Part shown: positions 1,484 through 43,789 of the stretch, piece by piece
How positions within the stretch are numbered: the stretch's first letter is position 1
Layout of the letters: each line of letters begins with the position of its first letter
Assembly (NCBI GenBank): GCA_033344915.1
Contig: JAWPML010000001.1
Coordinates: 2,786,369 to 2,850,368 of the forward strand
Direction: 5' to 3'
Length of the DNA: 64,000 bases
DNA from: Acidimicrobiales bacterium
GTDB taxonomy: Bacteria; Actinomycetota; Acidimicrobiia; Acidimicrobiales; Aldehydirespiratoraceae
Notes under the pieces: model-generated
Told to the model about the DNA's origin: nothing
Databases searched by the model: none
Seen by the model: the letters and a program-made list of their open reading frames with translations, nothing else
Made by a program: the position numbers and the translations under genes

Positions 1484-2695
1484 ATGGTGAGCGTGCCGGA
1501 CGACGAACGCATCAGTGCCGCCGAGGCCGCCTCCCGGCTCGGGGTGAAGCGGGAGACGATCTACGCCTACGTGAGCCGCGGCCTCCTGCACTCGAAGCGA
1601 CACCTCGACGGGAAGTCCTCCACGTTCGACCCGGCCGAGATCGACCGATTCCGGCGTCGCAAGGCCGACGATCGACCCGGTCGGCTGGAGGTGCCGGTCG
1701 CCTCCGGGATCACCGAGGTCCTCGACGGGTCGGTCCGTCTCCGCGGCCACTCGATCGGCGATCTCGTCGACGCCGGCCACAGCTATGAGTCGGTCGCGGA
1801 GCTGCTGTGGACGTCGACACTCACCGAGCCGGTCCCCTGGACCCCGTCGGCCCCCGTCGCCCGAGCGGTGCGCAAGGCCGGGGCAGCGCTGCCCTCGCAC
1901 GCGACGCCCACCGACCGCATGATGGCGGGCGTCGTCGCCGCCGGTGCCGTCGACCCGTTCCGCGACGACCGGTCCGTCGCCGGCGCGACAGCCACGGCCC
2001 GACAGCTGATCCGGGCGATCGTCGACTCACTGCCGACCGATCACGACGTCGCGACGGACCGGATCGCCCAACGGCTGTGGGTCCGCTTGACCGACGCCGA
2101 CGAGCGGGCCTGGCCCGCCCTGCAGACCGCGATGGTGATCCTCGCCGATCACGGCATGGCCACATCGACGCTCGCCGCCCGCCTCGCGGCATCGACGCGA
2201 GCGGCACCCCACGCGATCGTGCTCGCCGGGCTCGGTGCGGTGGCCGGTCCCCTGCACGGTGCGGCAAGCCGAACCGTGCATCTCCTGTTCGCCGACGCCG
2301 AGGCGAGCGGGCCCGACGCGGCGATCGCCGAGGTGATGCGGCGCGACGGTCGGGTTCCCGGCATCGGTCACTTCATCCACAGGGAGCGCGACCCGCGCCA
2401 CGACATCCTGTTCGACGCGCTCGCGGACCTTCCCCTCGACGGGCCGAGAATGGACGTCGTGGCCTCGGTTGTCGCCCGCACGACCGAGCGCATCCCGGCC
2501 GCGCCCAACGTCGACCTCGCGCTCGGCGCGCTCACCTACATCAGCGGCATGAGCCCGAACGCCGGCGAGGTGATCTTCGCGATCGCCCGCACGGCCGGCT
2601 GGATCGCCCACGCGCTCGAGGAGTACGAGGAGACGCCGATCCGCTTCCGGCCGGTCGGGCGCTACGTCGATCCGGTCAATCGTCGTCCGCGATGA
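1484..2695 (+). CDS. Citrate synthase-like protein with N-terminal helix-turn-helix domain
   Basis: 403 aa. Residues about 8-60 form an excisionase/MerR-type HTH (ISAAEAASRLGVKRETIYAY, then a Phe-Asp-Pro-Ala-Glu-Ile turn). The rest is a citrate-synthase fold: GPLHGAASR (His), GIGHFIHRERDPR (His), APNVDLALGA (catalytic Asp retained) and TAGWIAHALEEYEE. Such HTH fusions occur in other actinobacteria, but their role is poorly defined; a metabolite-sensing, self-regulating enzyme or enzyme-like repressor is a reasonable inference. The start at ATG 1484 follows a purine-rich GGAGGAGAGAGGA; an upstream ATG at 1451 would begin at the edge of the palindrome. The 3' end overlaps the convergent lysyl-oxidase gene by 20 bp. 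Confidence 0.85.
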   Translation: MVSVPDDERISAAEAASRLGVKRETIYAYVSRGLLHSKRHLDGKSSTFDPAEIDRFRRRKADDRPGRLEVPVASGITEVLDGSVRLRGHSIGDLVDAGHSYESVAELLWTSTLTEPVPWTPSAPVARAVRKAGAALPSHATPTDRMMAGVVAAGAVDPFRDDRSVAGATATARQLIRAIVDSLPTDHDVATDRIAQRLWVRLTDADERAWPALQTAMVILADHGMATSTLAARLAASTRAAPHAIVLAGLGAVAGPLHGAASRTVHLLFADAEASGPDAAIAEVMRRDGRVPGIGHFIHRERDPRHDILFDALADLPLDGPRMDVVASVVARTTERIPAAPNVDLALGALTYISGMSPNAGEVIFAIARTAGWIAHALEEYEETPIRFRPVGRYVDPVNRRPR

Positions 2696-6724: not shown

Positions 6725-8847
6725 AGCAACTCCAGGAGTTCGAGGGCGGCATCGGCGATGACCGTGCCCGGCGGGTAGACGGCGACGGCGCCCATGTCGA
6801 GCAGCGTGGGCACGTCGTCGGGCGGGATGACGCCGCCGACCGTGATCCGTATGTCCTCACGCCCGAGGCGGGCCAGTTCGTCGCGGAGTTCGGGCACGAG
6901 TGTGAGGTGGCCGGCCGCCAGCGACGACGCGCCGACCACGTGCACGTCGGCCTCGACGGCCTGGCGGGCGACTTCGGCCGGCGTCTGGAAGAGCGGCCCG
7001 ATGTCGACGTCGAATCCGAGATCGGCGAACGCCGTGGCGATCACCTTCTGGCCCCGGTCGTGGCCGTCCTGGCCCATCTTCGCGATGAGGATGCGGGGGC
7101 GGCGCCCGTTGGCCGCGGCGAAGTCGTCGACCTTCGCCCGGACTTCGGTGACGGAATCGGAATCGGCACCCACTTCGGCTCGATACACCCCTTCGATCGT
7201 GCGGATCTGCGCGACATGACGACCGTAGACCGTCTCGAGCGCGTCGCTGATCTCCCCGACGCTCGCCTTGGCGCGTGCGGCGTCGATGGCGAGGGCGAGC
7301 AGATTGCCGGTGCCGTCACGGGCCGCCGCGGTCAGCGCCGCGAGGGCGGTGTCGACCTCGGCCTGGTCCCGCTCGGCCCGCAGCTGCTCGAGCTTCGCGA
7401 TCTGGGCGGCGCGCACCTCGGCGTTGTCGATCCGGAGGACGTCGATGTCCTCGTTCTCGTCGAGGCGGTACTTGTTGACGCCGATGACCGCCTGACGACC
7501 CGAGTCGATGCGGGCCTGGGTGCGAGCCGCCGCCTCCTCGATGCGCATCTTCGGGATCCCGGCCTCGATGGCGGCGGCCATGCCGCCCATCTCCTCGACC
7601 TCGGTGATGTGGTCCCACGCCTTCTTGGCGAGCTCGTGGGTGAGCCGTTCGACATGATGGCTGCCGCCCCACGGGTCGACCGTGCGGGTCGTGCCGCTCT
7701 CCTGTTGGAGGAAGAGCTGGGTGTTGCGGGCGATCCGGGCGGAGAAGTCCGTGGGCAGCGCCAGCGCCTCGTCGAGCGCGTTGGTGTGCAGCGACTGGGT
7801 GTGGCCCTGCGTTGCGGCCATCGCCTCGACGCAGGTGCGGACGACGTTGTTGTAGACGTCCTGCGCGGTCAGCGACCACCCGCTGGTCTGGCTGTGGGTC
7901 CGCAGCGACAGCGACTTCGGGTTCTGCGGCTCGAACTCCTTCATCAGCTTCGACCACAGGAGACGCGCCGCTCGGAGCTTCGCCACCTCCATGAAGAAGT
8001 CCATCCCGATCGCCCAGAAGAAGCTGAGGCGGGGGGCGAACGCGTCCACGTCGAGCCCGGCCTCGATGCCGGCCCGGACGTACTCGACACCGTCGGCGAG
8101 CGTGTACGCGAGCTCGAGATCGGCCGTCGCCCCCGCTTCCTGCATGTGGTAGCCCGAGATCGAGATCGAGTTGAACTTGGGCATCTCCTCGCTCGTGAAG
8201 GCGAAGATGTCCGAGATGATCCGCATGCTCGGGGCCGGCGGGTAGATGTAGGTGTTGCGGACCATGAACTCCTTGAGGATGTCGTTCTGGATGGTCCCCG
8301 CGAGCTGTTCCGGCTTCACCCCCTGCTCCTCGGCCGCGACGACGTAGAGGGCGAGGATCGGCAAGACCGCCCCGTTCATCGTCATCGAGACGCTCATCTG
8401 ATCGAGCGGGATGCCGTCGAACAGCTGGCGCATGTCGAGGATCGAGTCGATGGCGACACCCGCCATCCCGACATCGCCGGACACGCGGGGGTTGTCGGAG
8501 TCGTAGCCCCGGTGGGTGGCGAGGTCGAACGCGACGGACAGACCCTTCTGGCCGGCCGCGAGGTTGCGTCGGTAGAAGGCGTTGGACTCCTCGGCGGTCG
8601 AGAACCCGGCGTACTGGCGGATCGTCCACGGTTGGTTGACGTACATCGTCGGGTACGGACCCCGCAGGAACGGCGGCAGGCCGGGAAGGGTCTCGAGAAA
8701 GTCCAGATCGGCGATGTCGTCGGCCGTCGTGACGGCGGGGATCTCGATCCCCTCGGGAGTCTCCGACACATGGTCCGACGCGGCCGTCGGCGCGGTCGCG
8801 GCTTCGAGATCGAGGTCGATCGTCGTGAAGTCCGGGATCACGCTCAT
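6721..8847 (-). CDS. mutB: Methylmalonyl-CoA mutase large (B12-binding) subunit
   Basis: 708 aa, full length for the catalytic subunit. The N-terminal TIM barrel has YPTMY (65-69), [38 protein letters not shown] and the CoA-tunnel segments. The C-terminal cobalamin domain has the base-off motif DGHDRG (594-599; lower-ligand His596) with GASSLAAGH and GGVIPPDD. It isomerises (R)-methylmalonyl-CoA to succinyl-CoA in propionate, Val, Ile and odd-chain fatty acid breakdown. It pairs with mutA about 2.4 kb upstream and with MeaB. The ATG lies 6 nt after TACCGT (leaderless-type), although a GGAG also falls in the gap. The LAxTG gene overlaps its stop codon. Confidence 0.96.
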
Positions 8848-31561: not shown

Positions 31562-31655
31562 CGCGCTCTCCCCGGCAGGTCGCTTCCGACGCTATCGGAG
31601 CAGTTCGCGATCGTTCACATCTGGACGGACCGTCGCGGGGTCGTCGATTCTCGTG

Positions 31656-31681
31656 AAGGATTCAGTGGCGCATGACGTCCA
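31656..31681 (+). promoter_or_regulatory. ECF-type promoter P1 (first sigma operon)
   Basis: AAGGAT at 31656-31661, 14 nt, then CGTCCA at 31676-31681. The same two blocks with the same 14-nt spacing occur ahead of the three other plus-strand transcription units in the cluster. A purine-rich AA-containing -35 and a CGTC -10 are the usual style of ECF sigma promoters. The ATG of the sigma gene follows about 20 nt downstream with its own Shine-Dalgarno. Probable autoregulation by one of the encoded sigmas. Confidence 0.65.
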
Positions 31682-31700
31682 AACACTCGTGAGAGGAAAG

Positions 31701-32234
31701 ATGTCGTCGACGAACGGCCTCGAGACCGCAGCGCGACGCGGGGACGAACACTCGTTCACCGCGCTGCTCGAACTCCACGACGAAACGATGCGCCGTCTCG
31801 CGTTCCGGCTTCTCGGGTCCGCCGCGTCAATGGACGACGCGCTGCAGGACGCCTATCTGAAGGCCTTCCGGAACATCGGCCGGTTCGAGGGACGATCCGC
31901 ATTCGGCACGTGGTTGTACCGGATCGTGTACCGCACCTGCGTCGACCATCTGCGGGCGCGGCAACGTCACACCCACCTGGCGCTGGGCGAGGCACCCGTC
32001 CTGTCCAGCCCCGATCCCACCGACGCCGCACTCGACGTCCACCACGCGATCCATCTGCTGGCGCAGCTCCCGATCGACCTCCGCGCCGTGGTCGTCCTCG
32101 TCGACGGTGAGGGAATGAGCTACGCCGACGCCAGCGCAGTCCTCGATGTGCCCGAGGGAACGGTGGCGAGCCGTCTCCATCGCGCGCACCGCGACCTGCG
32201 TCGGATCGCCGACACGGAAGGAGGCCTGAGATGA
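31701..32234 (+). CDS. ECF-family RNA polymerase sigma factor (first of three)
   Basis: 177 aa. Sigma-2 region about 20-88 (ELHDETMRRLAFRLLGSAAS, MDDALQDAYLKAFRNIG, GTWLYRIVYRTCVDHLRAR) and sigma-4 HTH about 115-170 (MSYADASAVLDVPEGTVASR, then LHRAHRDLRRI). Sigma-3 is absent, as in all ECFs. It would redirect RNA polymerase to a small regulon, probably the motif found at P1-P4. The ATG has GAGAGGAAAG directly upstream; the open frame further 5' runs through the promoter and is not used. Its TGA overlaps the start of the transglutaminase-like anti-sigma gene (ATGA), the usual sigma/anti-sigma coupling. Confidence 0.92.
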   Translation: MSSTNGLETAARRGDEHSFTALLELHDETMRRLAFRLLGSAASMDDALQDAYLKAFRNIGRFEGRSAFGTWLYRIVYRTCVDHLRARQRHTHLALGEAPVLSSPDPTDAALDVHHAIHLLAQLPIDLRAVVVLVDGEGMSYADASAVLDVPEGTVASRLHRAHRDLRRIADTEGGLR

Positions 32235-34702
32235 ACATCGAAGAGTTGCTCCGGGACACACCGACTCCGAGCCACGGCGACGGCTTCTGGGATGCGGTTC
32301 GCGCCGAAGTCCGTGCCCACGCACGCGAGCCGAACTCCGGTCCTGCCGTGACCGACGAGGTCGCAATCATCGAGCCTGCTGAACTCCATGCCGCGGGACC
32401 CGATGGGCGGCCCCAGGGCGCCCGGCCCTCCCGCCGGCGATGGCTCGTCCCCGTGGCGGTCGCGGCGGCGATCGCCCTCGTCTTGTTCGGATTGTCGGCC
32501 GAGGACGAGGAACAGCCGGCGGTCACGGACGACCGGCCCGTGCCCGGCGACGCGGAGGTCGGCCCCGAGACGCGATCCGTGCTGAGTCCGCTCGTGCAGC
32601 TCGGGAGCCTGCTCCTCGAGCAAGCAGAGCTCGAACTCTTCACCGTTCGGGTCGATCCGGATCATCGCGGCTACTGGCGAATGATGGCGCTCACCGAGTT
32701 CGAGGACGGGATCTGGCGCCGCTCCTCCAACTTCGACCCCGCAGTCGGCGCAGTCGAATCCGGCGTCGCCGAGGGCGTCTCGCGCACAACGGTTCGCCAG
32801 GAGATCACCGTCTCCGGGCTCGACGGCATCTACCTCCCCGCGGCCTTCGAGGTCAGCCGCATCGTGTTCACGGACGGCGTCGAACTCGAGTACGAGGTCG
32901 AAACCGGAGCGCTCGTCGTCGAGCACGGCCTCGCCGAGATACCCGATTCGTTCACCTACGTCATCGAGTCCGCGGTCCCCGACTACGACGTCGACAGCCT
33001 GCCCGCGGACGCCGGGGCAGGGGTCGACGACGCCTTCATGGAAGAGCACACGCAGCTCCCGCCCGTCTGCTCGCCGGGCTCGACCGCGGCCGGTCGGGAG
33101 TGTTGGCCCGAGGAGATCTCGGCGCTCGCTCGCGAGGTCACCGCCGGCCAGCAGACCGACCTCGCTCGCGCCGTCGCGCTGCAGAGCTTCTTTCGGGATC
33201 CCGAACGCTTCGTGTACGACCTGGACGTCGCCCTCGACCAGTCAGCGGCCGACATCGAGAGCTTCCTCGCCATCGGGCGCGGATACAGCGAACAGTTCGC
33301 CTCGGCCTTCGCCGCGATGGCTCGCAGCATCGGCATCCCGTCGCGCGTCGCCGTCGGATTCACCTGGGGCGAGTACGACTCGGCCCTCGACGAGTACCTC
33401 GTGTCGGGGAAGCACGCCCATGCATGGCCGGAGCTGTACTTCGCCGATGCCGGCTGGATCCCGTTCGAGCCGACTCCGGGGCGGAGCTCGACGGGGGAAC
33501 AGTCGGTTGCCCCGACCGACCACACCGGACTCAACTGGACCCGAGCCGCGGCACCTCCCGGGAGCGCCGCGACGATCTCGTGGGCCGGTTCGACCTTCGC
33601 CGCGGGCACGACCGAAGGGCTCTTCCTCAGCGCCGACGGGGCGAGCTGGTCGAAGGTCGAGAGCGTCGCAGGTGTCTCGATCGAGGGCGCGACGGGCGAC
33701 GGCGAGTCGATGGTCGCCTGGTCGGATTCCGACGCGAGGCTGTGGTCCAGTGTCGACGGCGGGAACTCGTGGACCGAGATCCCGGCCGGCGACCTTCGGC
33801 CCCCGGACCTCCGCGATCCGGCGCTCGGCGCCAGCGTCGAGTTGGCGGCCGCAGCGGTCACCGGACGCACCGTGGTGGTGGTGGCCATCCAGGACGTCGG
33901 ACTCGACGATGCCCTCGCCGCCCTCCGTAACGGAGGCGTGCCGGTCCCCGACGTCGTCGTGGGCCCGTGGCCCGGACCGTTTCGCGTGGTCCCGGCCGCG
34001 GACCCCGCCGACGCGCCGACGATCTCGTACTGCCCGGCGTTCGACACGGATACGGGCGAGTGCCCGACGGAGTCGGACTGGGACTCGTACACGCTCGCCG
34101 ACTTGGGAATCGATGAGTCCGCGGTGGCTCGCTGGGACCCGCACCCGCTCGTCTATCGGTCGGTCGACGGTGAAGCGTTCCAGCGGGTCGACGGCGCGCC
34201 CGAAGCCGCGCTCCTGGGAGTCGCCGACGGGAGCTTCGTCGCTGTGGCGGGTGACGCGTTGGCCGTTTCGTCCGACGGTGTCGAATGGCGCGAGCGGCCC
34301 TTCGACGGCTCCCTTCGCTCGGTCACGTTCGCCGACCGTGCCATCTACGCAGGGCGGGGCGCGGGGATCATCCGGTCGGACGACCTTGGGCTCACCTGGG
34401 AGTCGGTTCGGGTCGAAGGCGGTCACGCGGGGTTCGGGATCTCGGCCGGCCCGGCCGGCATCATCGCCTATGGCCTGCTCGACACCGACGATCTGAGCGA
34501 CCCCCGGGTCGTCGCCTGGTCGACGGCCGACGAAGACGAGTTGTCGGACTGGACGCTCACGGAGACGATCCTCGCGTCGGACTTGAGCGTGATGTCAGCA
34601 GCGGTCGGGACCGATCGGGTCGTCCTCCAACTCACGTCGGGAGTCAGTGGCTCCTCACCGGAGCCGAGCGGGATCGCCGTTGGCGTCGTGGTCTCTCCCT
34701 GA
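32231..34702 (+). CDS. Membrane anti-sigma-like protein with transglutaminase-fold and Asp-box propeller ectodomains
   Basis: 823 aa. Cytosolic residues 1-68 include LLRDTPTPSHGDGFWDAVRA, the FW motif shared with the two other anti-sigma-like proteins of the cluster; no ZAS Zn motif. TM at 71-90. Outside: a beta-rich region and helical lead-in (about 110-340), then a transglutaminase-like core (about 345-415). In the core the catalytic Cys position of GYCEQFA is Ser353 (GYSEQFASAFAAM, AGC codon 33287-33289), while the His (HAHAW, His397) and acidic residue (PFEPTPGR, Glu413) remain. Residues about 430-820 carry at least five Asp-box repeats (LFLSADGASW, LWSSVDGGNSW, VSSDGVEW, IRSDDLGLTW), so a beta-propeller. 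Probably a surface sensor that holds the sigma factor; enzyme activity is doubtful. Confidence 0.8.
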   Translation: MNIEELLRDTPTPSHGDGFWDAVRAEVRAHAREPNSGPAVTDEVAIIEPAELHAAGPDGRPQGARPSRRRWLVPVAVAAAIALVLFGLSAEDEEQPAVTDDRPVPGDAEVGPETRSVLSPLVQLGSLLLEQAELELFTVRVDPDHRGYWRMMALTEFEDGIWRRSSNFDPAVGAVESGVAEGVSRTTVRQEITVSGLDGIYLPAAFEVSRIVFTDGVELEYEVETGALVVEHGLAEIPDSFTYVIESAVPDYDVDSLPADAGAGVDDAFMEEHTQLPPVCSPGSTAAGRECWPEEISALAREVTAGQQTDLARAVALQSFFRDPERFVYDLDVALDQSAADIESFLAIGRGYSEQFASAFAAMARSIGIPSRVAVGFTWGEYDSALDEYLVSGKHAHAWPELYFADAGWIPFEPTPGRSSTGEQSVAPTDHTGLNWTRAAAPPGSAATISWAGSTFAAGTTEGLFLSADGASWSKVESVAGVSIEGATGDGESMVAWSDSDARLWSSVDGGNSWTEIPAGDLRPPDLRDPALGASVELAAAAVTGRTVVVVAIQDVGLDDALAALRNGGVPVPDVVVGPWPGPFRVVPAADPADAPTISYCPAFDTDTGECPTESDWDSYTLADLGIDESAVARWDPHPLVYRSVDGEAFQRVDGAPEAALLGVADGSFVAVAGDALAVSSDGVEWRERPFDGSLRSVTFADRAIYAGRGAGIIRSDDLGLTWESVRVEGGHAGFGISAGPAGIIAYGLLDTDDLSDPRVVAWSTADEDELSDWTLTETILASDLSVMSAAVGTDRVVLQLTSGVSGSSPEPSGIAVGVVVSP

Positions 34703-34752
34703 GCCCGCAGACGCTCGCATGGCCGCTCGGCCGCCGGATTTCACGCCACCGG

Positions 34753-34778
34753 AAGGATGCGCGGCTCGAGTCCGTCTC
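34753..34778 (+). promoter_or_regulatory. ECF-type promoter P3 (barrel protein-esterase operon)
   Basis: GGAAGGAT with core AAGGAT at 34753-34758, 14 nt, CGTCTC at 34773-34778. It lies in the 105-bp gap after the first anti-sigma gene and 30 bp before the ATG of the membrane-anchored barrel protein. Block sequence and spacing match P2 almost exactly. Confidence 0.65.
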
Positions 34779-34807
34779 ATGAACGAGACAACGGACGGAG
34801 CGGGCAG

Positions 34808-35965
34808 ATGGCTCGAAAGGCGGAAGCGGTGGTCGTCGCGGAGAACGCGGCCGAACGAGTCAGGCGCGCAGCGGCGGTGCCGCTGATGCTGGGCGTCATG
34901 GCCCTCCTCGCCACGATCTACGGCCACACCGCGAGCCCCCATCGTGCGGCTCCGGACGACCCCGTTCCCGCGCCGGTGTCGTCTCGCGCGATCGATGACG
35001 ACCCGCCGGAGGAGGAACCCGAGTACATCGAGGTGACCTACTGGGAGGCTGTGCGCGACGACGCGGCGGGGGCCTCCTTCGAGGGGGTCGCGACGCACCT
35101 GGGCCGAGCCTCGGGCGTGACGGTGGAGGGCTCCGTCTCGTGTCCGCAGGACGAGTCGCCGCCGACGCGACAGGTCATCGGAGGAACGATCACGTCGCAG
35201 TGGGGCGAGGAGATCCACTACACGGTCGGCACCTGCTCCGGCGATCCGGATGTCCGGGTCGTCACCGGAGGTTCGGGGCGCTTCGAGGGGGCGACGGGAG
35301 CCATCTCCACCGCCGCGAGCACGCTGCCCGAGTTCTCGAGCTTCGCGACGGGTCGGCTTCGGGTGCGCGCGGACCTCTGGGAGGACTGGCTGCCCTCGGC
35401 CCCGCGTTCGGCACCGCCATCCCCGGCCGGCCTCGTCGAACTGGCGTACTTCGAGGGACTCGTCGCGGTGGAGACCTCGGCGCCGGAGAGCGGCTGCGAT
35501 CACAGCCTCACCCCGCTCGTCGTCTGCGACTTCCACGAAACGGGCGAGCTGCGCGGTCCGACGATCGGCGAGGCGACCTACGCCGCGACCGGCCATCGCG
35601 CCATCGGGACGAGCATGTCGTGCGACAACGACGACGGATCCACCAGCCGACCGGAGCTACGCCTGGCGACGGGCACGATCACCGTCGAGGGAGGCGATCA
35701 ACTCTTCTACTCGTCGTTGGCCCGGCTCGGCGGGTGCGCCGACCACGGATCAGGCCTCGAGACGACGGTCACGTACCGCCTCATCACCGGGGGCACCGGG
35801 CGCTTCGAGCGTGCGCACGGGTTGATCTCCGGCGTCGAGGTCCCCGAACTGGGATTCGCCGCCATCGGCCTCGGAAGATTGTTCGTGCACGACGCCGGCG
35901 AGGGAAGGAACGCGGGAGCCGCTTCGTCTACTCGGGAAAGCACCCACACAGGAGCGGCGGAATGA
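34808..35965 (+). CDS. Membrane-anchored tandem AOC/dirigent-like beta-barrel protein
   Basis: 385 aa. A short basic cytosolic lead, one TM (about 22-40, AVPLMLGVMALLATIYG), an acidic linker, then two related repeats (about 75-190 and 215-365). Each ends in the motif VVTGGSGRFEGATGAIS or LITGGTGRFERAHGLIS followed by a FATGRL/AIGLGRL strand. That GGTGRFxxAxG turn is characteristic of allene-oxide-cyclase/dirigent-like eight-stranded barrels. Each repeat holds Cys pairs that suit extracytoplasmic disulfides. Ligand or activity unknown. GGAG precedes the ATG; the stop overlaps the esterase start (ATGA). Confidence 0.65.
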   Translation: MARKAEAVVVAENAAERVRRAAAVPLMLGVMALLATIYGHTASPHRAAPDDPVPAPVSSRAIDDDPPEEEPEYIEVTYWEAVRDDAAGASFEGVATHLGRASGVTVEGSVSCPQDESPPTRQVIGGTITSQWGEEIHYTVGTCSGDPDVRVVTGGSGRFEGATGAISTAASTLPEFSSFATGRLRVRADLWEDWLPSAPRSAPPSPAGLVELAYFEGLVAVETSAPESGCDHSLTPLVVCDFHETGELRGPTIGEATYAATGHRAIGTSMSCDNDDGSTSRPELRLATGTITVEGGDQLFYSSLARLGGCADHGSGLETTVTYRLITGGTGRFERAHGLISGVEVPELGFAAIGLGRLFVHDAGEGRNAGAASSTRESTHTGAAE

Positions 35966-37158
35966 CTTCATCGGCGGACATCATCATCGAGGAGGAGCCG
36001 GCGGGTTCCCACGACCCGGCACGGCGGCGGATCTGGACGGTCCGAGCCGTCGGCGTGATCACGATCGCAGGCCTGGTCGCACTCGGCTGGCCGCTCGCCG
36101 CCCGTTCTCCGGCGAGCATCGAGCCCCTGGAGCTCGGCGCCGGCGGCGACTCGGCCTTCGCTCCCCCGGGACCGCAGGCTCCGGCAGCACCCCCGGCGGT
36201 CGCGGCGGCCGTCGAGGAGTCGGCGCCTACCGACGAGCCGGTGCCTGCGGCTCCTCCGGAGGAGTCGAGCGTCGACCCGATCATCGTCCCCGATCCCCGC
36301 CCTGGCGACCTCCGGGTGGACGCGAACGCGGACGTGTTGCCCACGGCCTACACCCCGGAGCCCCCACGGGCTCCGCAACTCGACGTCCCCTACGGACCCG
36401 ATCCGGAGCAGCAGCTCGACGTGTACCTCCCTGCTCGCGACCACGCGCCCGCAGTCGTCTACCTGCACGCCGGCGGTTGGGTCGCGGGCGGCAAGGAACA
36501 CCTGCCGGACATGGTCCTACGGTTCGCGGAACTCGGCTACGCGGTGGTGTCGGTCGGCTACCGGCTCGCCCCGGATCATCCGTTCCCGGCACCCGTCGAA
36601 GACGTCAAGCGCGCCCTTCGCTGGGTCAAGGTGATGGGCGAGGAGACCGGCGCCATCGACGGTGACCGCATCGTGCTCTACGGCGCGTCCGCCGGAGGCC
36701 ACCTGGCAGCGTTCGTCGCGGCGACACCAGGCGACTTCGAACCGACCGGGTTGACGCCGGCGGAAGAACGCGTCGACTCGACGGTGGCAGGGGTCGTGAG
36801 CGTTGTCGGACCGACGGACCTCGTGTCCTTCGCCGACCACCCACACGACTGGGCGCTGACGCTGACCCGGGCGCACCTCGGCTGTGAGCTGTGCACCGAC
36901 GAGACGCTGGCGCACGCCAGCCCGCTGTGGCGGCTCGGGGACGACGTCCCTCCGGCCTACTGGGCCGTCGGAGCCCAGGATCCGCTCGTCGATCCCGACA
37001 CCCAGGGCGCCCCGGTCGCGGCCGCATGGGCAGCCGCCGGTGGGCCGCTGTCCTCGTGGTACGACGTCGTGGACGACGCGGGCCACAACATCGACGAGAG
37101 CATCATCAACCAGCGTTTCGTGGAGCTCTTCGTCGAGTTCGCCACCCAGGCCGGGTGA
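35962..37158 (+). CDS. Membrane-anchored alpha/beta-hydrolase (HSL-type esterase), paralogue 1
   Basis: 398 aa. Cytosolic N-terminus, TM about 26-46 (VRAVGVITIAGLVALGWPLA), an Ala/Pro-rich linker (62-105), then PDPRPGDLRVDANAD, a motif repeated in the second esterase of the cluster. Catalytic domain: oxyanion loop YLHAGGWVAGG (HGGG-like with Ala for the first Gly), nucleophile elbow GASAGG (Ser243), acid in GAQDPLVD and His in DAGHNID. This is the hormone-sensitive-lipase/BD-FAE type; it should hydrolyse esters outside the membrane, perhaps envelope acyl groups. ATG overlaps the barrel gene stop; GGAG precedes it. The second sigma operon starts 91 bp later. Confidence 0.83.
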   Translation: MTSSADIIIEEEPAGSHDPARRRIWTVRAVGVITIAGLVALGWPLAARSPASIEPLELGAGGDSAFAPPGPQAPAAPPAVAAAVEESAPTDEPVPAAPPEESSVDPIIVPDPRPGDLRVDANADVLPTAYTPEPPRAPQLDVPYGPDPEQQLDVYLPARDHAPAVVYLHAGGWVAGGKEHLPDMVLRFAELGYAVVSVGYRLAPDHPFPAPVEDVKRALRWVKVMGEETGAIDGDRIVLYGASAGGHLAAFVAATPGDFEPTGLTPAEERVDSTVAGVVSVVGPTDLVSFADHPHDWALTLTRAHLGCELCTDETLAHASPLWRLGDDVPPAYWAVGAQDPLVDPDTQGAPVAAAWAAAGGPLSSWYDVVDDAGHNIDESIINQRFVELFVEFATQAG

Positions 37159-37173
37159 TGCAGAAGCGGGTGG

Positions 37174-37199
37174 AAGGATTCATCTCCCTCGTGCGTCTC
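37174..37199 (+). promoter_or_regulatory. ECF-type promoter P2 (second sigma operon)
   Basis: GGAAGGAT with core AAGGAT at 37174-37179, 14 nt, CGTCTC at 37194-37199, in the gap after the first esterase gene. The GTG start of the second sigma gene is 51 nt downstream of the CGTCTC block with its own strong Shine-Dalgarno. The extended block GTGGAAGGATTCA closely matches P1 (TCGTGAAGGATTCA). Confidence 0.65.
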
Positions 37200-37249
37200 A
37201 CCCATTGATGGAACACTCGAGGCGGCGGATCTCGCGAGGGAGGAGGGCG

Positions 37250-37801
37250 GTGGACCCGGTCACGCCAGCGGCAGATCTCGTTCGCGCTGCCCAGACCGGG
37301 GACCACCGCGCCTTCTCCCAGCTGATCCGCGACTGCGACGAGCGGATGCGCCGTCTCGCCTTCCGGCTGATGGGCTCGGCCGCCGCCATGGACGACGCGC
37401 TGCAGGACGCCTACCTGAAGGCGTACCGGAAGCTCGACACCTACAACGGGAGTGCCGCCTTCTCGACCTGGCTCTACACGATCGTCTACCGCACGTGCCT
37501 GGACCACCTCCGGCGCCGCCGCAACCGACGGGAAACCGACATCGATCTCGTGGCGGAGTCGGTGTCCGTCGGTGCCGACATCTCGAAGCAGGCAGTCGAT
37601 GCCGATGCATTGGCGGCGGCGCTCGCCGACCTGCCGGCGGACCAGTGTGCCGCGGTGCTGCTCGTGGACGGCGACGGCCTTTCCTACGCCGAGGCCGCCA
37701 GCGTTCTCGACGTCCGCGAGGGCACCGTCGCCAGCCGCCTGAACCGGGCCCACGCCCGACTCCGAACCGTTCTCGGCGACCCGGGAGGTGATCTCGGATG
37801 A
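37250..37801 (+). CDS. ECF-family RNA polymerase sigma factor (second of three)
   Basis: 183 aa. Sigma-2 (CDERMRRLAFRLMGSAAAMD, DALQDAYLKAYRKLDTYNG, STWLYTIVYRTCLDHLRRRR) and sigma-4 (LPADQCAAVLLVDGDGLSYA, EAASVLDVREGTVASRL). It is very similar to the first sigma over both regions, so the two are paralogues. I chose the GTG at 37250 because it follows GGGAGGAGGG; an ATG at 37208 would add 14 residues without a ribosome-binding site. The TGA overlaps the next start (ATGA). Confidence 0.9.
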   Translation: MDPVTPAADLVRAAQTGDHRAFSQLIRDCDERMRRLAFRLMGSAAAMDDALQDAYLKAYRKLDTYNGSAAFSTWLYTIVYRTCLDHLRRRRNRRETDIDLVAESVSVGADISKQAVDADALAAALADLPADQCAAVLLVDGDGLSYAEAASVLDVREGTVASRLNRAHARLRTVLGDPGGDLG

Positions 37802-39720
37802 GCGCGCTCGGCGACCTCCTGAACGACCTTCCGGTGCCGGAGCACGGTGACGACTTCTGGGCCCGACTCGAGCGCGACCTCGTGGACGACACCCTCGTCG
37901 TCGAGCCCTCGCCCACCACGGTGGGCGAGGGCGGCGCGGACACGACCATCGAGCCCGACGGCGACGAACTTCGACGGCGACGAACGAGGCGATTCCTCCT
38001 CGTCGCCGCGGCCGCGGCTGCCGCGGTGATCGCCATCATCATCGGCTACGGCAGCCTGATCGAGGACAGCGGCCCCACCCGTGTCGTCGACGACCCGCCG
38101 ACGCCGACGCCGACACCCACGGTCCTCGATCCCCCCGATGACGCGACCGTCCGGTCGGTCGGGGCTCTCGAATGGACCGAGACGGCCGCCGCGGTCCCGG
38201 AGAATGCGGCGACGGGGATGTTGGGGTTGGTGCCCTGGGGGCCGGCGGGCTTCTCGGCGTTCGACTACACCACCGACCCCGGGACGCTCTTCGTGTCTCG
38301 CGACGGCCGCTCGTGGAACGAGGAGGATCGACTGCCGGACGCGTTCGGAGCCCAGTGGATCGGGGGCCGGGACGACGACTGGGTGGCGACCGAATCCGGC
38401 AACGAATCCGTGCGGGTGATCGCCAGCCGCGACGCGGGCGACTCGTGGACCGAGCTCCCCGTGCTCGAGCCCGACCTCGTGCTGTCCGAGTCCGTGACCG
38501 GGTGGATCCAGGACGCATCGGCGTTGGTCAACGACGGCACGATCCTGCTGACCGTGCGGTTGCAGACCATCGTCGACGACATCGCGGTCATGCGTGCAGC
38601 CGGACACCGGGCCGAGGAGCTGATCATCCAGTGGGGATCGTGGAACGAGGCCGGCCACTATGTCGTCACCGCCTGCGATCGAAATGCCGTCGAGCCCGAG
38701 GCGAACCAGTTCCCCGCATGCCCGGACGCGGCGACCGACGAGTACGACCTCGGCGACCTCGGCGTCGGCGTCCCCTGGGGCAACGCCGTGAAGTGGTTCG
38801 TCTCGGACGACGGCGGGCCCTTCACCGAAACCGAGGGGCCCGGTGTCGCCGCTGCGGTCCAGCTCGTCGTCGGAGGCGAGTTCCTCGTACTCGGCCAGGT
38901 CCCGGCCGGGGGCACGTCCGCGTTGCACCGCTCTGCCGACGGAAGGGACTGGACCTCGGGGTCCTTCTCGGCCGAAGGAACCAACGACTTCCAGGCCCTC
39001 TCGCTCTTCTCGACGGGCGAGATCCTCTTCGCCATGCGCGACGGAGTCCTGATCCGCTCCCTCGACGTCGGCCGCACGTGGGAGGAGTTGGACACGCCGC
39101 CGGGCGAGATCGACCGTGTCGCCGTCGGCCCGGGTGGCATCGCGCTCGCCGGCCGGATCGACGTCGATCCGGCGGTCGCGGAGCCACCGGTGATCGAACG
39201 CGACGGCTACACCATCGAGTTCGTGCTCGGTGACGGGATCGTGGTGACCGACGGCGACGGCCGGACGATCCTGCGCACCGCTCATGGGCTCGAGTCCGAG
39301 ACCCACACCGCCGAACAGGTGGACGACGGGCCGGTGGCCTATCGGCTCGTCGACGAGACGGGCGCGGTCGTCCTCGAGATCACCTATGAGGAGACGTTGG
39401 CCCTCGCCTTGCCGGGCAACGGCTCGGAAGGACAGCCGCCGACCGCGGTGATCGCCTGGTCGCCGGACGGCGCCGGACTGGTCTGGACCCCCGTCCACGA
39501 GGTCTTCGATCTCGACCCGTCCGGCACGCCGAACCTGAGTGTCCTCGGAGTCGGCGAGACCACGCTGCTCGCAGTCGTCAGCACGAGCGGGCCGACCCGA
39601 GAGGTCGACGCCCGAGAACTGCTCGACAACTTCACAGAGGTCGACCCGATTCCGGGCAACGCAACGGTGACCATGGCGGGCGAGTCGACCGTGCGCACCT
39701 ACGTGGCGGATCTGCAGTGA
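37798..39720 (+). CDS. Membrane anti-sigma-like protein with Asp-box beta-propeller ectodomain
   Basis: 640 aa. LGDLLNDLPVPEHGDDFWAR at 4-23 is the shared cytosolic FW motif; TM about 66-86 (FLLVAAAAAAAVIAIIIGYG); a Pro/Thr linker (95-115). The ectodomain (about 120-635) has repeated Asp-boxes: LFVSRDGRSW, VIASRDAGDSW, WFVSDDGGPF, ALHRSADGRDW, LIRSLDVGRTW, IAWSPDGAGLVW. That is a sialidase/sortilin-type propeller without visible sialidase catalytic residues. Unlike its 823-aa relative it has no transglutaminase-like part. Translationally coupled to the second sigma; its own stop overlaps the third, degenerate sigma (GTGA). Presumed sensor and sigma tether. Confidence 0.77.
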   Translation: MSALGDLLNDLPVPEHGDDFWARLERDLVDDTLVVEPSPTTVGEGGADTTIEPDGDELRRRRTRRFLLVAAAAAAAVIAIIIGYGSLIEDSGPTRVVDDPPTPTPTPTVLDPPDDATVRSVGALEWTETAAAVPENAATGMLGLVPWGPAGFSAFDYTTDPGTLFVSRDGRSWNEEDRLPDAFGAQWIGGRDDDWVATESGNESVRVIASRDAGDSWTELPVLEPDLVLSESVTGWIQDASALVNDGTILLTVRLQTIVDDIAVMRAAGHRAEELIIQWGSWNEAGHYVVTACDRNAVEPEANQFPACPDAATDEYDLGDLGVGVPWGNAVKWFVSDDGGPFTETEGPGVAAAVQLVVGGEFLVLGQVPAGGTSALHRSADGRDWTSGSFSAEGTNDFQALSLFSTGEILFAMRDGVLIRSLDVGRTWEELDTPPGEIDRVAVGPGGIALAGRIDVDPAVAEPPVIERDGYTIEFVLGDGIVVTDGDGRTILRTAHGLESETHTAEQVDDGPVAYRLVDETGAVVLEITYEETLALALPGNGSEGQPPTAVIAWSPDGAGLVWTPVHEVFDLDPSGTPNLSVLGVGETTLLAVVSTSGPTREVDARELLDNFTEVDPIPGNATVTMAGESTVRTYVADLQ

Positions 39721-40181
39721 GCACCGACGGGGCGGCGCGTCTCGGTCTGCACGCACTGCGTCTCCACGACGAGCGGATGCGCCGCTACGCGCACCGGATG
39801 GTCGGCTCACCCTCGGACATGGACGCGGTGCTCACGGTCGCGTACGCCGCGGCCCACCGCGAACAGGTCGACCGGGCCACGGCGCCGAGTCCACTGATCC
39901 GGCTGTACCGAGCCGTCCACCGTAGTTGCCGCGCCCATCTCAGCAAGCCGATCGAGGGGGACGGGGCCCCGGCACCGGAGGCGAACGCCGGGGTTCTCGG
40001 CGCGCTCGCCCTCGTACCGATCGACGACCGCGGTCTGGTCCTGCTCGTCGACGGCGAGGAATTGGCAGTGCCGGACGCGGCTCAGGCGGTGGAGATCGAC
40101 GAAACCGGTGCGCCGGCTCGGCTCGCGCACGCCCGCGCCGTCATCACCGAAACCCTCGAGCACGATCGGGGGCAAGCATGA
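39717..40181 (+). CDS. Degenerate ECF sigma-like protein (third of three)
   Basis: 154 aa. It lines up with the two active-looking sigmas from LHDERMRRYAHRMVGSPSDM to the end, but key parts are eroded. DDALQDAYLKAFR is MDAVLTVAYAAAHRE, the conserved Trp of GTWLYRIVYR is lost (LIRLYRAVHR), and the sigma-4 recognition helix PEGTVASRLHRAHR reads DETGAPARLAHARA. The overall length and frame are intact and it is coupled at both ends (GTGA with the gene before, ATGA with the gene after), so it is not simply a pseudogene. It may bind an anti-sigma or core RNA polymerase without normal promoter recognition. Confidence 0.75.
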   Translation: MSTDGAARLGLHALRLHDERMRRYAHRMVGSPSDMDAVLTVAYAAAHREQVDRATAPSPLIRLYRAVHRSCRAHLSKPIEGDGAPAPEANAGVLGALALVPIDDRGLVLLVDGEELAVPDAAQAVEIDETGAPARLAHARAVITETLEHDRGQA

Positions 40182-41650
40182 GCGATCTCTCCGATCTCCT
40201 CCGCGAGCTGTCCGTCCCCGAGCACGCACCGGACTTCTGGACGCGTCTCGAATCGCAGATCGACGCGGTGGACGCGACCGAGTCGGCGCGTCAGCGACGG
40301 CTCGCTCCCGTCCCGGAAACGGAACTCGTCGTCGTCGAGCCCGACCCCGGGGAGCCCGCGCCCCATCGGCTCCGACGTCGGGCTCTGCTGATCGCGGCCG
40401 CAGCGGCCACCGTGCTCGCGGTCCTGTTCGGATTGGGCGAGCTCGCGGACGACGGCGCCCCCGCGCCGACGATCACCGACGAGGATCTGCCGACGACGAC
40501 CACGCGTGCGTCGACGACGACCACCACCACGACCGAGGGTCCGCCGGACTCGTCGACGGTCCCGGCGCCGGCCGACGACGGGAGTGCCGAGCTGCGTTCA
40601 CTCGGCCTCCCCCTCGACTTTTCGAGCGCGACGGGTCTGACCGATCTCCAGCCTGTCGAAGTCGCGGGCTCGGGCTTCGATCCCGGAGCCTCGCTCGCCG
40701 TGTTGCAGTGCCACGGCCCGATGGACTCGCCGGACGACGGCAACCTCGTCGCAGCAGTGGACGGCTGCGACCTGAGCGGATATCGGACCCTCGTCGCCGA
40801 CGAGAACGGCGAGTTCGTCACGACCTATCAACCCCGCCGATTCATGTCGAACGAACACGGGTCGTTCGACTGCGCGAACCCCGGACCGCCCAACGTGTGC
40901 GGCATCGCGGCGGGCGACACGCTCGACCTCACGAGCTTCGGGATCCGCGAGGTCACGTTCGCGGCAAGCGCCGACGCGTCGGCTGCCCCCCACCTCGTGG
41001 TCGATCGCAGCGTCCCCTTCGCCGCCGGCCAGACCGTGACGGTCACCGGCCGCGGTTTCGCGCCCGGCGAGCCGGTCGAGGTCGCGATCTGCTCGCTCGA
41101 CGCCCCCGCGTGGAGTACGTGCCGGGGATCGACCGCGGCCTACCGGTTCACGGCCGACGGGAACGGCGAGTTCGTCGCCGAGATGCCGATGCACCGGATC
41201 GCCGGCGGAGCCGACTGCACGTCCATCCTTTTCGGGTGTCGCCTCGTCGGCTTCGGGGGCCGGGTGACCCATCCTCTGCTCCTCGAGTTCGACACGACGG
41301 AGGCCGCGACCGGTCCGGCCTCGTTGCCGGACGCGCGCGTTCCGGCCGATGCCGCTTCGGCGCGGCTGGAGATACCGACTTCCGAAGCGCCCGCCGGCTC
41401 GATGATCGAGGCGAGGGTCTGCACCGACGTCAATCGGCTTCCACCCGAACAGATCTGCGGCCCAGCCGTCTCGGCGACGGGGACGGGCGCGACGACGACC
41501 GTGGAGATTCCGGTCGGCACGACCATCGGCGACGGAGAGAGCGTCGCCGACTGCATCGACTGGCGATCGACCGCGACCGACTTGTGCCACCTCGTGGTCA
41601 CGACCGACTCCTACCGCTATCCGCCCGTGAATCTCGTCTTCGAGCTGTGA
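40178..41650 (+). CDS. Membrane anti-sigma-like protein with neocarzinostatin-like ectodomains
   Basis: 490 aa. LSDLLRELSVPEHAPDFWTR at 4-23 repeats the FW motif of the other two; TM about 69-87; a Thr-rich linker (about 95-125). The ectodomain contains at least two sandwich domains of the neocarzinostatin/macromomycin type: LQPVEVAGSGFDPGASLAVL with QCHGPMDSP, and VTVTGRGFAPGEPVEVAICS. Both have paired Cys, and a third more divergent unit (about 390-490) follows. These domains bind small hydrophobic ligands in the antibiotic proteins, so ligand sensing is plausible. Its partner would be the degenerate sigma or one of the intact ones. Confidence 0.73.
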   Translation: MSDLSDLLRELSVPEHAPDFWTRLESQIDAVDATESARQRRLAPVPETELVVVEPDPGEPAPHRLRRRALLIAAAAATVLAVLFGLGELADDGAPAPTITDEDLPTTTTRASTTTTTTTEGPPDSSTVPAPADDGSAELRSLGLPLDFSSATGLTDLQPVEVAGSGFDPGASLAVLQCHGPMDSPDDGNLVAAVDGCDLSGYRTLVADENGEFVTTYQPRRFMSNEHGSFDCANPGPPNVCGIAAGDTLDLTSFGIREVTFAASADASAAPHLVVDRSVPFAAGQTVTVTGRGFAPGEPVEVAICSLDAPAWSTCRGSTAAYRFTADGNGEFVAEMPMHRIAGGADCTSILFGCRLVGFGGRVTHPLLLEFDTTEAATGPASLPDARVPADAASARLEIPTSEAPAGSMIEARVCTDVNRLPPEQICGPAVSATGTGATTTVEIPVGTTIGDGESVADCIDWRSTATDLCHLVVTTDSYRYPPVNLVFEL

Positions 41651-41690
41651 CGCGGCGCTGCGTGCGAAGCGTCCCAACCGATGGTCGCGC

Positions 41691-42491
41691 TCAGGTCCCG
41701 GCCCGCTGCTCGTCGGCGATCTCGCAGGCGTGCTCGTAGAGCTCACGGTCGAGGGTCGTGTCGTCCTCGATCGCTGCGGTGAGCGCGTCGGACACGACCG
41801 CCCGATTCGACGACACACGAACCCGCTCGATCCGCTCGAACGAGATGCCGGCCCGCCGGGCGAGCCGGGTGGCCATCCTGTCGAGCCGTTCGGTGACACC
41901 GACCACGTCCACCCGACGCAGCCGGGCGAGCGCCGCGGCAAGGTCCGCGGCGACCATGATCGTCGGGTCGCCGACGCCGGTCGCCAGCGCCGACAGCAAC
42001 ATGGTCTGGACCTCGTCCGGCTCCATGTTCGCTGCGGCGACCGCGGCGGCATCCTTCCCGGCCTGATGCGTCGACGCGTCCGCGGCGAACAGTCGCGTCT
42101 GGTAGTTGCGCAGACGGTCGCGCCAGGCGGGAATCTCGTAGATCGCTTCGAGGTCGTCCGGCGTTGCCTCGTAGCCGGCGACCTGGCGCAGGTGCGAGAT
42201 CGTGCGGGCCGTCGGCTCGCGCAGCACCGTCACGTGCAGGTGATGGGGTGCCACCTCCTCCGCCACCCATGCCGGAACATGCGGCGTCAGGAGATCGAAC
42301 CCCGTATCGCCGCGCACCCGCTCGAGAAGTGCGTCGATCGAACCCTTCTCCTCGAAGAGCGCGTCCGGCGTCGGATAGCAACGCGATGGCGCATAGGAGC
42401 CCTGGAGGGCCCGGATCAGTGCGCTACCGCCGGTCTTCATGACGTGGACGAAGAAGATCGGACTCGGTGGAGAACGGACCTGGCTACCCAT
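41691..42491 (-). CDS. Sulfotransferase family protein
   Basis: 266 aa. The N-terminal PAPS 5'-phosphosulfate loop is clear (IFFVHVMKTGGSALIRALQG, with the KTGGS core), and the 3'-phosphate region VTVLREPTARTISHLRQVAG follows at about residue 100. This is the layout of membrane-carbohydrate or chondroitin-type sulfotransferases. It transfers sulfate from PAPS to a hydroxyl or amine acceptor, perhaps a surface glycan. It lies on the minus strand between the third anti-sigma and second esterase genes. ATG 42491 is 8 nt after TACCGT (leaderless-type); an ATG at 42497 is nearer. Confidence 0.83.
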   Translation of the reverse strand: MGSQVRSPPSPIFFVHVMKTGGSALIRALQGSYAPSRCYPTPDALFEEKGSIDALLERVRGDTGFDLLTPHVPAWVAEEVAPHHLHVTVLREPTARTISHLRQVAGYEATPDDLEAIYEIPAWRDRLRNYQTRLFAADASTHQAGKDAAAVAAANMEPDEVQTMLLSALATGVGDPTIMVAADLAAALARLRRVDVVGVTERLDRMATRLARRAGISFERIERVRVSSNRAVVSDALTAAIEDDTTLDRELYEHACEIADEQRAGT

Positions 42492-42565
42492 GGCCATCGA
42501 CGGTACCGCCCCCGGCCGCGGCGACCCCCAGACGACGATCTCTCGGATGTTTTCGTGATGTCGGG

Positions 42566-42591
42566 AACGAAACGGCCGACGGACACGTCAT
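42566..42591 (+). promoter_or_regulatory. ECF-type promoter P4 (second esterase)
   Basis: GGAACGAA with core AACGAA at 42566-42571, 14 nt, CGTCAT at 42586-42591. The -35 block differs from P1-P3 at two positions (AACGAA for AAGGAT), but the 14-nt spacing and the CGTC are conserved. It lies 68 nt before the chosen esterase start. It is the weakest of the four; its agreement with them is the reason to list it. Confidence 0.5.
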
Positions 42592-42658
42592 AGGACACAA
42601 CCACCCCCCATCGCGTGTCCCGGCGGAGACATCCCGGGCATCAGAGGCAGGCACCCCC

Positions 42659-43789
42659 GTGGGCCCTTCGAGAGCACCTTCCCCCGACGCGCCCCGACGC
42701 GGGCGCACCAGCGACCAGCGCGGTGTCCTCGTGCTGCTCGGCGCCATCCTCCTCGTCGCCGCGATGGGCGTTGCGCCGAGCATCGTGTCGGGCGAGCCGG
42801 TGGTCGTCGACGATCCGGCCGCCGATGATCCGACGACGCCGACATCCGCGCCTGCCGTCGAGCGCATCAGCGACCCGACGACGACGCTCACTCCTGCGGG
42901 TCCCACACAGGTGCAACTCGTCGCCGATCCGCGGCCGGGTGATCTGCGCGTCGACCCGAACGGCGACCTCCTGGCGAACGACTACGAGCCCTGGAGCGGG
43001 CGCGAGATCCGACGGGATGTCGAGTACGGACCCGACCCGTACCACCGCTACGACCTGTACCTCCCGGCCGACGACGGCGCGCCGCTGATCGTCTACCTCC
43101 ACTCCGGCGGTTGGATCGGCGGCGACCGTTCGTACGTGCCGCCGATGGTGTTGCGCTTCGTCGAGCTCGGCTACGCCGTGGCCTCCGTCGAGTACCGGAT
43201 CGCGCCGTACAGCACGTTCCCCGGCCCCGTCGAGGACGTGAAGCGGGCGATCCGTGAGCTCAAGGCGATGGGGGTCGAGACCGGGCTGATCGATCCCGAC
43301 CGCGTCGTGGCCTACGGGACGTCCGCCGGCGGCCACCTCGCCACCTTCGCCGCGGCATCGGTCGGCGAATTCGAGCCGACCGACGTCTCCCCGACCGCCC
43401 AGGCCTTCGATTCGAGCGTCGCCGCCGTCGTGTCCGCCGTCGGCCCGACCGACCTCGTGCAGATGTACGGCCACCCGAACGCGTGGGCGGCCCCGATGAC
43501 CGGCACGTTCATGGGCTGCTTCCCGACCTGCACGCCGGATCAGCTGCTGCCCGCCAATCCGGCCGAATACCTGCACGCCGACCTCCCGCCGGCGTATTGG
43601 GCCTACGGCGCGCTCGACCCGCTCGTCGATGCGGACGCACAGGGCGTCGTGATCGCCGAGGCGTGGGCGGCCGCCGGGGCCGAGAGCTGGCTCGACGTCG
43701 TGGAGAACGGCGACCACAATCTCGACGGCACGCTCGTCAACCAGCGTGCCATCGAGGCGTTCCTCGCGCGGGCGATCGCCGCCGACTGA
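42659..43789 (+). CDS. Membrane-anchored alpha/beta-hydrolase (HSL-type esterase), paralogue 2
   Basis: 376 aa. Basic N-terminus, TM about 22-42 (GVLVLLGAILLVAAMGVAPS), an Asp/Thr/Pro linker, then ADPRPGDLRVDPNGDLLAND, matching the first esterase. The catalytic domain has YLHSGGWIGG, nucleophile GTSAGG, GALDPLVD and NGDHNLD. Most of the chain is collinear with paralogue 1 (VLRFVELGYAVASVEYRIAP, PVEDVKRAIRELKAMGVETG, SAVGPTDLV). It is predicted to act outside the membrane on ester bonds. The start is uncertain: GTG 42659 gives a normal TM topology and matches the paralogue, but the Shine-Dalgarno is poor; the frame is open to an ATG at 42467, which precedes the promoter. Confidence 0.8.
   Translation: MGPSRAPSPDAPRRGRTSDQRGVLVLLGAILLVAAMGVAPSIVSGEPVVVDDPAADDPTTPTSAPAVERISDPTTTLTPAGPTQVQLVADPRPGDLRVDPNGDLLANDYEPWSGREIRRDVEYGPDPYHRYDLYLPADDGAPLIVYLHSGGWIGGDRSYVPPMVLRFVELGYAVASVEYRIAPYSTFPGPVEDVKRAIRELKAMGVETGLIDPDRVVAYGTSAGGHLATFAAASVGEFEPTDVSPTAQAFDSSVAAVVSAVGPTDLVQMYGHPNAWAAPMTGTFMGCFPTCTPDQLLPANPAEYLHADLPPAYWAYGALDPLVDADAQGVVIAEAWAAAGAESWLDVVENGDHNLDGTLVNQRAIEAFLARAIAAD

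Follow-up and report, generated by a model that had tools for sequence, protein, structure and literature searches.

The closest described counterparts of the locus considered here, a cluster of sigma factor genes in a stretch of 64,000 nucleotides from an Acidimicrobiales genome (contig JAWPML010000001.1; hereafter the window), are the SigI/RsgI pairs of Clostridium thermocellum, in which SigI is not an extracytoplasmic function (ECF) sigma factor, and the ECF pair Tt-RpoE1/Tt-TolB of Thermoanaerobacter tengcongensis. A first-pass annotation of the window had held that no system of this composition was described; SigI/RsgI is comparable, with paralogous sigmas, interchangeable polysaccharide-binding anti-sigma ectodomains and enzymes as outputs (PMC4711584), and sigma release there proceeds via proteolysis (PMC12203970). 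Like the present cluster, it comprises several paralogous pairs, most with overlapping sigma and anti-sigma genes, and one ectodomain in which an enzyme domain has become a binder; SigI1 transcribes from its own promoter, the outputs are enzymes, and overlap between paralogues has been suggested (PMC4711584; PMC12203970). In contrast, the N-terminal region of RsgI spans about 165 residues, as against about 65-75 residues without that domain here; the SigI pairs have locus tags far apart in the genome, whereas the units here lie side by side; and the SigI promoter consensus is C-----AAA-N13-14-CGWA rather than GGAAGGAW-N14-CGTC (PMC4711584; PMC12203970). No SigI model occurs among the 25 best NCBIfam matches listed for each sigma of the cluster, the Pfam matches being ECF-type, and its three anti-sigma-like proteins (asf1-3) gave no Pfam or NCBIfam match of the RsgI N-terminal kind. 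Because the sigma and anti-sigma domains differ, we do not assign the cluster to SigI/RsgI.

Tt-RpoE1/Tt-TolB resembles the cluster in its ECF sigma and in an anti-sigma with a short binding segment (39 residues in Tt-TolB) and one transmembrane (TM) span; Tt-TolB has a TolB-type ectodomain, the two genes are adjacent and transcribed from their own promoter, as is proposed here, and CGTC is the functional -10 element of Tt-RpoE1 (PMC3397946). One pair was studied, no esterase outputs are reported in the available text, and the likeness is one of description, not of sequence relationship (PMC3397946). Class I anti-sigma domains likewise belong to membrane anti-sigmas encoded beside an ECF gene, but they average 101 residues, whereas the cytoplasmic part here is shorter and has no HxxxCxxC, and class I ectodomains are typically conserved within a group (PMC7406223), whereas those here vary. 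Among the top-ranked records of open-access literature searches, judged by title or abstract, no paper was found on this lineage or on a transglutaminase or neocarzinostatin anti-sigma, a weak absence given this restriction and given that subscription literature is mostly outside that scope. Circuits of this type are already known: SigI/RsgI operates in a like manner, and the anti-sigma of Tt-RpoE1/TolB is similar. The novelty lies in the ECF lineage, the anti-sigma motif, the putative pseudo-enzyme ectodomain and the degenerate sigma. We consider it probable that the cluster is a compact, positively auto-regulated ECF regulon in which several sensors feed one promoter type.

AAGGAT-N14-CGTC occurs at 31656, 34753 and 37174 (+), with no other exact copy on either strand of the window, and a variant, AACGAA-N14-CGTC, occurs at 42566 (+). 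The first-pass annotation had placed these upstream of four transcription units, and all four are exact, as is its reading of the -35 regions (TGAAGGAT, GGAAGGAT, GGAAGGAT and GGAACGAA, in order; three GGAAsGA and, at the first, TGAAGGA). Its count was too low: a fifth full site, GGAAGGAA-N14-CGTC, lies at 35903-35928 (+) within the 3' end of the putative barrel gene, 33 nt 5' of the est1 ATG. Sites 1 (31654-31679), 2 (34751-34776), 4 (37172-37197) and 5 (42564-42589), all on the plus strand, precede sig1, the barrel gene, sig2 and est2 by 21, 31, 52 and 69 nt, so that with site 3 every site stands 21-69 nt from a gene start. The AAGGAT sites at 49213 (+), 42056 (-) and 28578 (-), already named as lacking CGTC at this distance, do lack it, as does a fourth at 41230 (-). 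Looser matches in the window are AAGGAA-N14-CGTC at 11392 (-; score 15.0) and, inside asf2, GGAACGAG-N14-CGTC at 38642 (+; score 13.7).

Across the whole genome, a single contig of 4,481,363 bases, there are 12 matches to KGAASGAW-N14-CGTC, five of them in the 10.9-kb stretch of the cluster, and a reversed control has none; the binomial probability of this clustering is 7e-11 for a pattern that was, however, fitted to these same sites. As the pattern derives from the finding itself, the motif was retested by a matrix built from relatives and by an unguided word-pair count. The matrix, made only from 13 sites upstream of sigma genes in other genomes, ranks the five cluster sites 1-5 over both strands of the window (17.5-21.5 bits; next 15.0). 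The count took all pairs of 4-mers in the 300 bp upstream of 27 related sigma genes (29 minus two near-duplicates), and its top pair is GGAA-N18-CGTC, present in 14/27 against a maximum of seven in 30 shuffled sets. The full KGAASRAW form precedes 13 of the 27. Among 29 other ECF loci of the family (its best sig2 matches there, not thinned, with 350 bp scanned rather than 300) GGAA-N18-CGTC occurs once, compared with 14/27 (Fisher 4e-5). The concentration that the first-pass annotation had proposed to look for is seen both in the cluster (5/12) and upstream of related sigma genes (13/27, full form), and the single shared ECF-type promoter that it had postulated extends to many distant relatives.

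None of the seven genomic matches outside the cluster has a called gene start within 200 bp on the same strand, and strict sites that precede called genes in this genome are all inside the cluster. At six of these seven loci raw open reading frames (ORFs) were inspected: three (L072, L073, L082) have an ORF of at least 100 residues beginning within about 100 nt, two of the three antisense to longer called genes and none chosen by the gene caller. GGAASGAW with a spacing of 13 or 15 adds three genomic matches, none in the cluster. The relaxed pattern GGAAGG-N16-CGTC has 40 sites in the genome and 12 in the reversed control; loci were available for 30 of the 40, 24 of them newly inspected, and one of the other ten sites (L083) had already been examined. 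Five of the 24 new loci have a called start within 200 nt, and all were discounted as promoters: L216, L228 and L232 with the site inside a coding gene, L211 and L224 with a start only 13 and 5 nt after CGTC.

The products of sig1 (31701-32234, +; ribosome-binding-like GAGAGGAAAG) and sig2 (37250-37801, +; 54% identical to sig1) match Sigma70_r2 and Sigma70_r4_2 above the Pfam cut-offs and have no sigma3 domain, which places them among the ECF sigmas; at the level of sequence, each also has an ECF-like promoter of its own with a GGAA-type -35 and a short -10. For both, the best NCBIfam model is SigM, below its cut-off. Gene starts were set from reading frames and upstream purines and agree, except for est2, with a codon-usage caller trained on nine cluster genes. 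In the DNA-contact regions, sig1 retains each of the 18 columns conserved in the family (numbered on sig2); since both sigmas keep the conserved DNA-contact residues, both should read the same sites, and either sensor could fire the whole set. The first-pass annotation had counted three sigma/anti-sigma pairs; two are pairs with normal sigmas, and in the third the sigma (sig3) is degenerate, with its DNA-contact residues largely lost.

Within the family, where all candidates were scored, a sig2 query finds some ECF in 49 of 51 genomes and none above 43% identity outside its own genome. Order-wide (397 genomes, best eight candidates per genome scored, so that counts are lower bounds) at least 21 genomes, its own included, match at E<=1e-32, the others at 41-55% identity. 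One relative, L120, has a frameshifted sigma gene in the assembly and was left out of protein alignments, counting for its upstream site only. Five sigmas sampled from the 29 other ECF loci form one clade, separate from the sig1/sig2 relatives. That the site-bearing sigmas form a single clade was considered and is unsupported, the sites being scattered over a tree whose deep forks are poorly resolved. At two related loci the sigma gene comes after a co-directional gene for a putative peptidoglycan-binding protein (by eye; L065:11224-11784, L118:1281-1928); the motif of L065 (12116, minus) stands 332 nt upstream of that gene instead.

Each sigma gene is followed by an anti-sigma-like gene whose start overlaps its stop codon: asf1 (32231-34702), asf2 (37798-39720) and asf3 (40178-41650), all on the plus strand. 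The products share a short cytoplasmic motif, P-x-H-x-x-x-F-W-x-x-L, ahead of one N-terminal TM segment (about residues 72-90, 66-84 and 69-87) with a net positive inner flank, a topology also found in est1 and est2. The ectodomains differ, as the first-pass annotation had maintained and as domain scans of the window and relatives support: asf1 has TgpA_N and a transglutaminase-like domain with a BNR-like tail, asf2 a BNR-like ectodomain (both BNR-like parts below cut-off) and asf3 neocarzinostatin-like repeats. Ectodomain matches above the Pfam cut-offs are transglutaminase and TgpA_N in asf1, the neocarzinostatin-like repeats of asf3 and, among relatives, PD40 in L057 (narrowly) and CBM60 in L070, where the anti-sigma-like protein (7523-8476) ends in this xylan-binding module (E 2.7e-12). 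In fetched loci F-W, F-Y or F-F stands near the N-terminus of the next protein for 20 of 24 related sigma genes (18 with F-W); the exceptions, for these motifs, are L051, one gene in L058 and two in L071. The 23 anti-sigma-like proteins otherwise have little in common (mean column identity 14%).

No Cys precedes the TM segment in asf1-3, which excludes the HxxxCxxC of class I zinc anti-sigmas, and the NCBIfam anti-sigma model NF052375 reaches 15.7-28.4 bits in four of 13 proteins scanned (asf1, asf2, L057, L066), far from its cut-off of 100; that these downstream partners inhibit the sigmas is proposed from gene order and the short motif. Aligned with TgpA (6g49, E 1e-9), the transglutaminase-like domain of asf1 has Ser at the Cys position and Glu at the Asp position and keeps the His, positions that we take to be catalytic. 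It may be a pseudo-enzyme, which fits a sensor role; the GH10 domain of RsgI6, which is reported to bind but to be very weakly active, is likewise an enzyme domain turned binder (PMC4711584).

The remaining plus-strand genes are candidate outputs. The putative barrel gene (34808-35965) encodes an anchored protein, and est1 (35962-37158) and est2 (42659-43789; 51% identical to est1) encode membrane-anchored alpha/beta hydrolases of the BD-FAE type, a family name that refers to feruloyl and acetyl-xylan esterases; both are predicted to be esterases. For est2 the start at 42659 was retained, the codon-usage caller favouring an inner start at 42731. The barrel assignment of the first-pass annotation survives as a weak lead: allene-oxide-cyclase/dirigent-like stretches are present below cut-off, no Pfam match lies above it, and a single-sequence AlphaFold model (pLDDT 36) was unusable. 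Between asf3 and est2 lies a minus-strand gene (41691-42497) with no Pfam match above cut-off, presumably sulfotransferase-like from its start, FFVHVMKTGGSA. The sole tRNA gene found in the window is a tRNA-Ala (ggc) at 1578-1667 (-).

The proposed circuit would work as follows. At rest, the cytoplasmic segment of an asf protein would hold sig1 or sig2 at the membrane. The ectodomain, whether a transglutaminase-like pseudo-enzyme with BNR-like repeats, BNR-like repeats or a neocarzinostatin-like sandwich, would feel an extracellular ligand, most likely a cell-envelope or biomass polymer, and the anti-sigma would then be inactivated, probably through regulated proteolysis by analogy with RsgI. 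The freed sigma would read GGAAGGAW-N14-CGTC, re-fire both sigma operons and switch on the anchored barrel-like protein and the two anchored esterases. The logic would be that of an OR gate, as either sensor could fire all targets, and sig3 would no longer read DNA.

The gene for sig3 (39717-40181, +; 154 residues) overlaps both neighbours by its start and stop codons. Its product has no Pfam sigma domain above cut-off and no receiver match; its best NCBIfam model is PhyR (NF006623, 36 bits, E 4.7e-9, cut-off 240), ahead of SigM (25.8 bits), and a sequence comparison with solved chains gave nothing at E<=1. In an AlphaFold model (pLDDT 87.5), predicted from an alignment of nine rows, parts resembling sigma2 and sigma4 are present; the best fold matches of the model include anti-sigma-bound sigmas (SigW-RsiW, RpoE-NepR) and SigG1, with the PhyR-NepR structures 4qic (rank 12) and 2lfw (rank 14) further down. 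Taking as conserved the columns shared by at least 80% of 24 family rows, with region borders set by us, sig3 keeps 15/20 in regions 2.1, 2.2 and 4.1 versus 7/18 in regions 2.3-2.4 and 4.2 (Fisher 0.047, borderline), and in region 2.2 the Gln and one Asp of MDDALQDAY are gone, residues that presumably contact core polymerase. The protein probably cannot read a promoter; it would be a relic or act on the anti-sigmas as a decoy.

That sig3 is no more than a sigma gene duplicate in decay, with no function left, has in our judgement almost an even chance. Its branch is very long (4.6 changes per column, too long to be placed in the tree), no orthologue was found in the 51 family genomes at E<=1e-6, and the order-wide search (E<=1e-9, best nine candidates per genome) matched only sig1, two ordinary sigmas and L195. 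Yet the reading frame is intact and overlaps both neighbours, its composition is coding-like for a caller not trained on it, and conserved columns survive more in regions 2.1, 2.2 and 4.1 than in 2.3-2.4 and 4.2, at the borderline significance given above. On a more speculative reading, which we hold doubtful, sig3 would be a stand-alone sigma mimic: a translationally coupled pseudo-ECF that has lost promoter binding, and probably core binding too, docks on the F-W anti-sigmas and, by titrating them, sets the threshold of the shared OR-gated regulon. The sigma-like domain of PhyR in the PhyR/NepR/EcfG general stress response (PMC4598750) resembles sig3, which differs in lacking a receiver domain and in having membrane-anchored partners. 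L195:403-1599, from another family of the order (G261), encodes a degenerate sigma-like protein ending in a long C-terminal tail rich in Pro and Ala, and a membrane protein gene comes next; the sigma-like protein has lost the same two region 2.2 residues (MDAxLxVAY for MDDALQDAY), retains 16/20 and 11/18 columns, and hints at a recurring class of degenerate sigmas.

Several observations weigh against the proposed regulon. No full -35/-10 match lies within 300 bp of 14 of the 27 related sigma genes, and the wider regulon is known from this genome only: the clear motif cases among relatives (52 sites in 20 genomes, 30 with loci inspected; gene calling is unreliable in the low-G+C genomes) all precede sigma genes. 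The partner in L118 has F-D instead of F-W, the motif His is absent in some relatives (L050, L069, L070), and the ectodomains of asf1 and asf2 hold further, weaker hydrophobic windows. A sugar ligand is a guess, given that Pfam recognises nothing above cut-off in the ectodomains of 18 of 20 relatives. Finally, site 5 may be older than the sigma genes at the locus, and since it is conserved where sig1 and sig2 were not detected, another ECF may read it.

The history of the locus bears on this last point. In two genomes of the same genus (G026, G027) the flanking genes of the cluster, NPD-like and thiolase, directly adjoin; G029 has one further gene between the two, and in G025 the contig ends within the thiolase. 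An est2 orthologue stands between them in G030 (56% identical, with nothing else) and in G028 (54%, with one other gene). Both orthologues (L236:1270-2512, L235:5774-7020) lie beside the thiolase and have a conserved copy of site 5 and no sigma cluster at the locus; in G028 the called est2 start is upstream of site 5, and a later start was assumed. TGATGTCGGGAACnAAACGnCCGAC ... CGTCATA is identical upstream of est2 in the window, G028 and G030, and the flanks diverge. Site 5 and est2 thus exist without the sigma cluster, which appears to have entered between the NPD-like gene and est2. The search with sig2 turned up no sigma above 38% identity in either G028 or G030, assemblies that are 82% and 66% complete. 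The order-wide est2 search (397 genomes, best four candidates per genome scored) found no relative outside the own genome; it missed G028 and G030, which are probably among the 397 and have one, and is not to be trusted. A second site 1 copy considered in G030 (L278:99-124, 22/26 identical) lies antisense inside a called gene, presumably PhoH-like, with no sigma nearby, and is taken as chance.

A rival idea is that of two nested circuits, in which sites 1-4 form the sig1/sig2 regulon, site 5 is read by another ECF of the genus (GGAAC/CGTC) and the cluster was inserted later; we regard this as a real possibility, if appreciably short of even. Site 5 differs in sequence (GGAACGAA) and scores lowest of the five, the stretch surrounding it hardly varies among G000, G028 and G030 while its flanks diverge, and the G030 esterase adjoins the NPD-like gene. 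Against it stands L056, a sig1/sig2 relative with GGAACGAT before its own sigma gene, so that a C at that -35 position fits the family; the G028 and G030 assemblies are incomplete, and the seven other ECF loci inspected in the own genome lack such a site before the sigma gene. The description of the cluster as self-contained in the first-pass annotation stands in so far as the strict gene-preceding sites are all within it, and falls short at site 5, conserved in two genomes of the genus without detected sig1 or sig2.

ECF systems commonly serve envelope stress, and the anti-sigmas could sense damage rather than a nutrient polymer, and the esterases and barrel protein could act on the cell's own surface to alter or shield it. 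SigM as best NCBIfam model for both sigmas, albeit below cut-off, and outputs that look anchored and outward-facing would suit such a role, but the cluster has no recognisable envelope-stress gene, a relative carries the xylan-binding CBM60, and the outputs match BD-FAE, a family whose name refers to feruloyl and acetyl-xylan esterases; we find this account rather unlikely. That the motif recurs by chance or through base composition, as its derivation from four sites and the CGTC expected by chance in G+C-rich genomes might suggest, is very improbable, being contradicted by the relatives' matrix ranking and the unguided word-pair count, by the genome-wide clustering with no outside site before a called gene, and by the 1/29 frequency in other ECF loci.

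The compact regulon that we favour would supply an ECF lineage of Acidimicrobiales, so far uncharacterised, with a promoter rule that can be tested. The analysis also names a short anti-sigma motif that no model in the Pfam scans covers, and the cluster would make available a compact natural circuit with different outer sensors that may converge on one promoter. Should sig3 indeed be a mimic, sigma mimicry would have arisen beyond the PhyR pathway of Alphaproteobacteria, in a form that lacks a receiver domain and could be studied inside a single operon.

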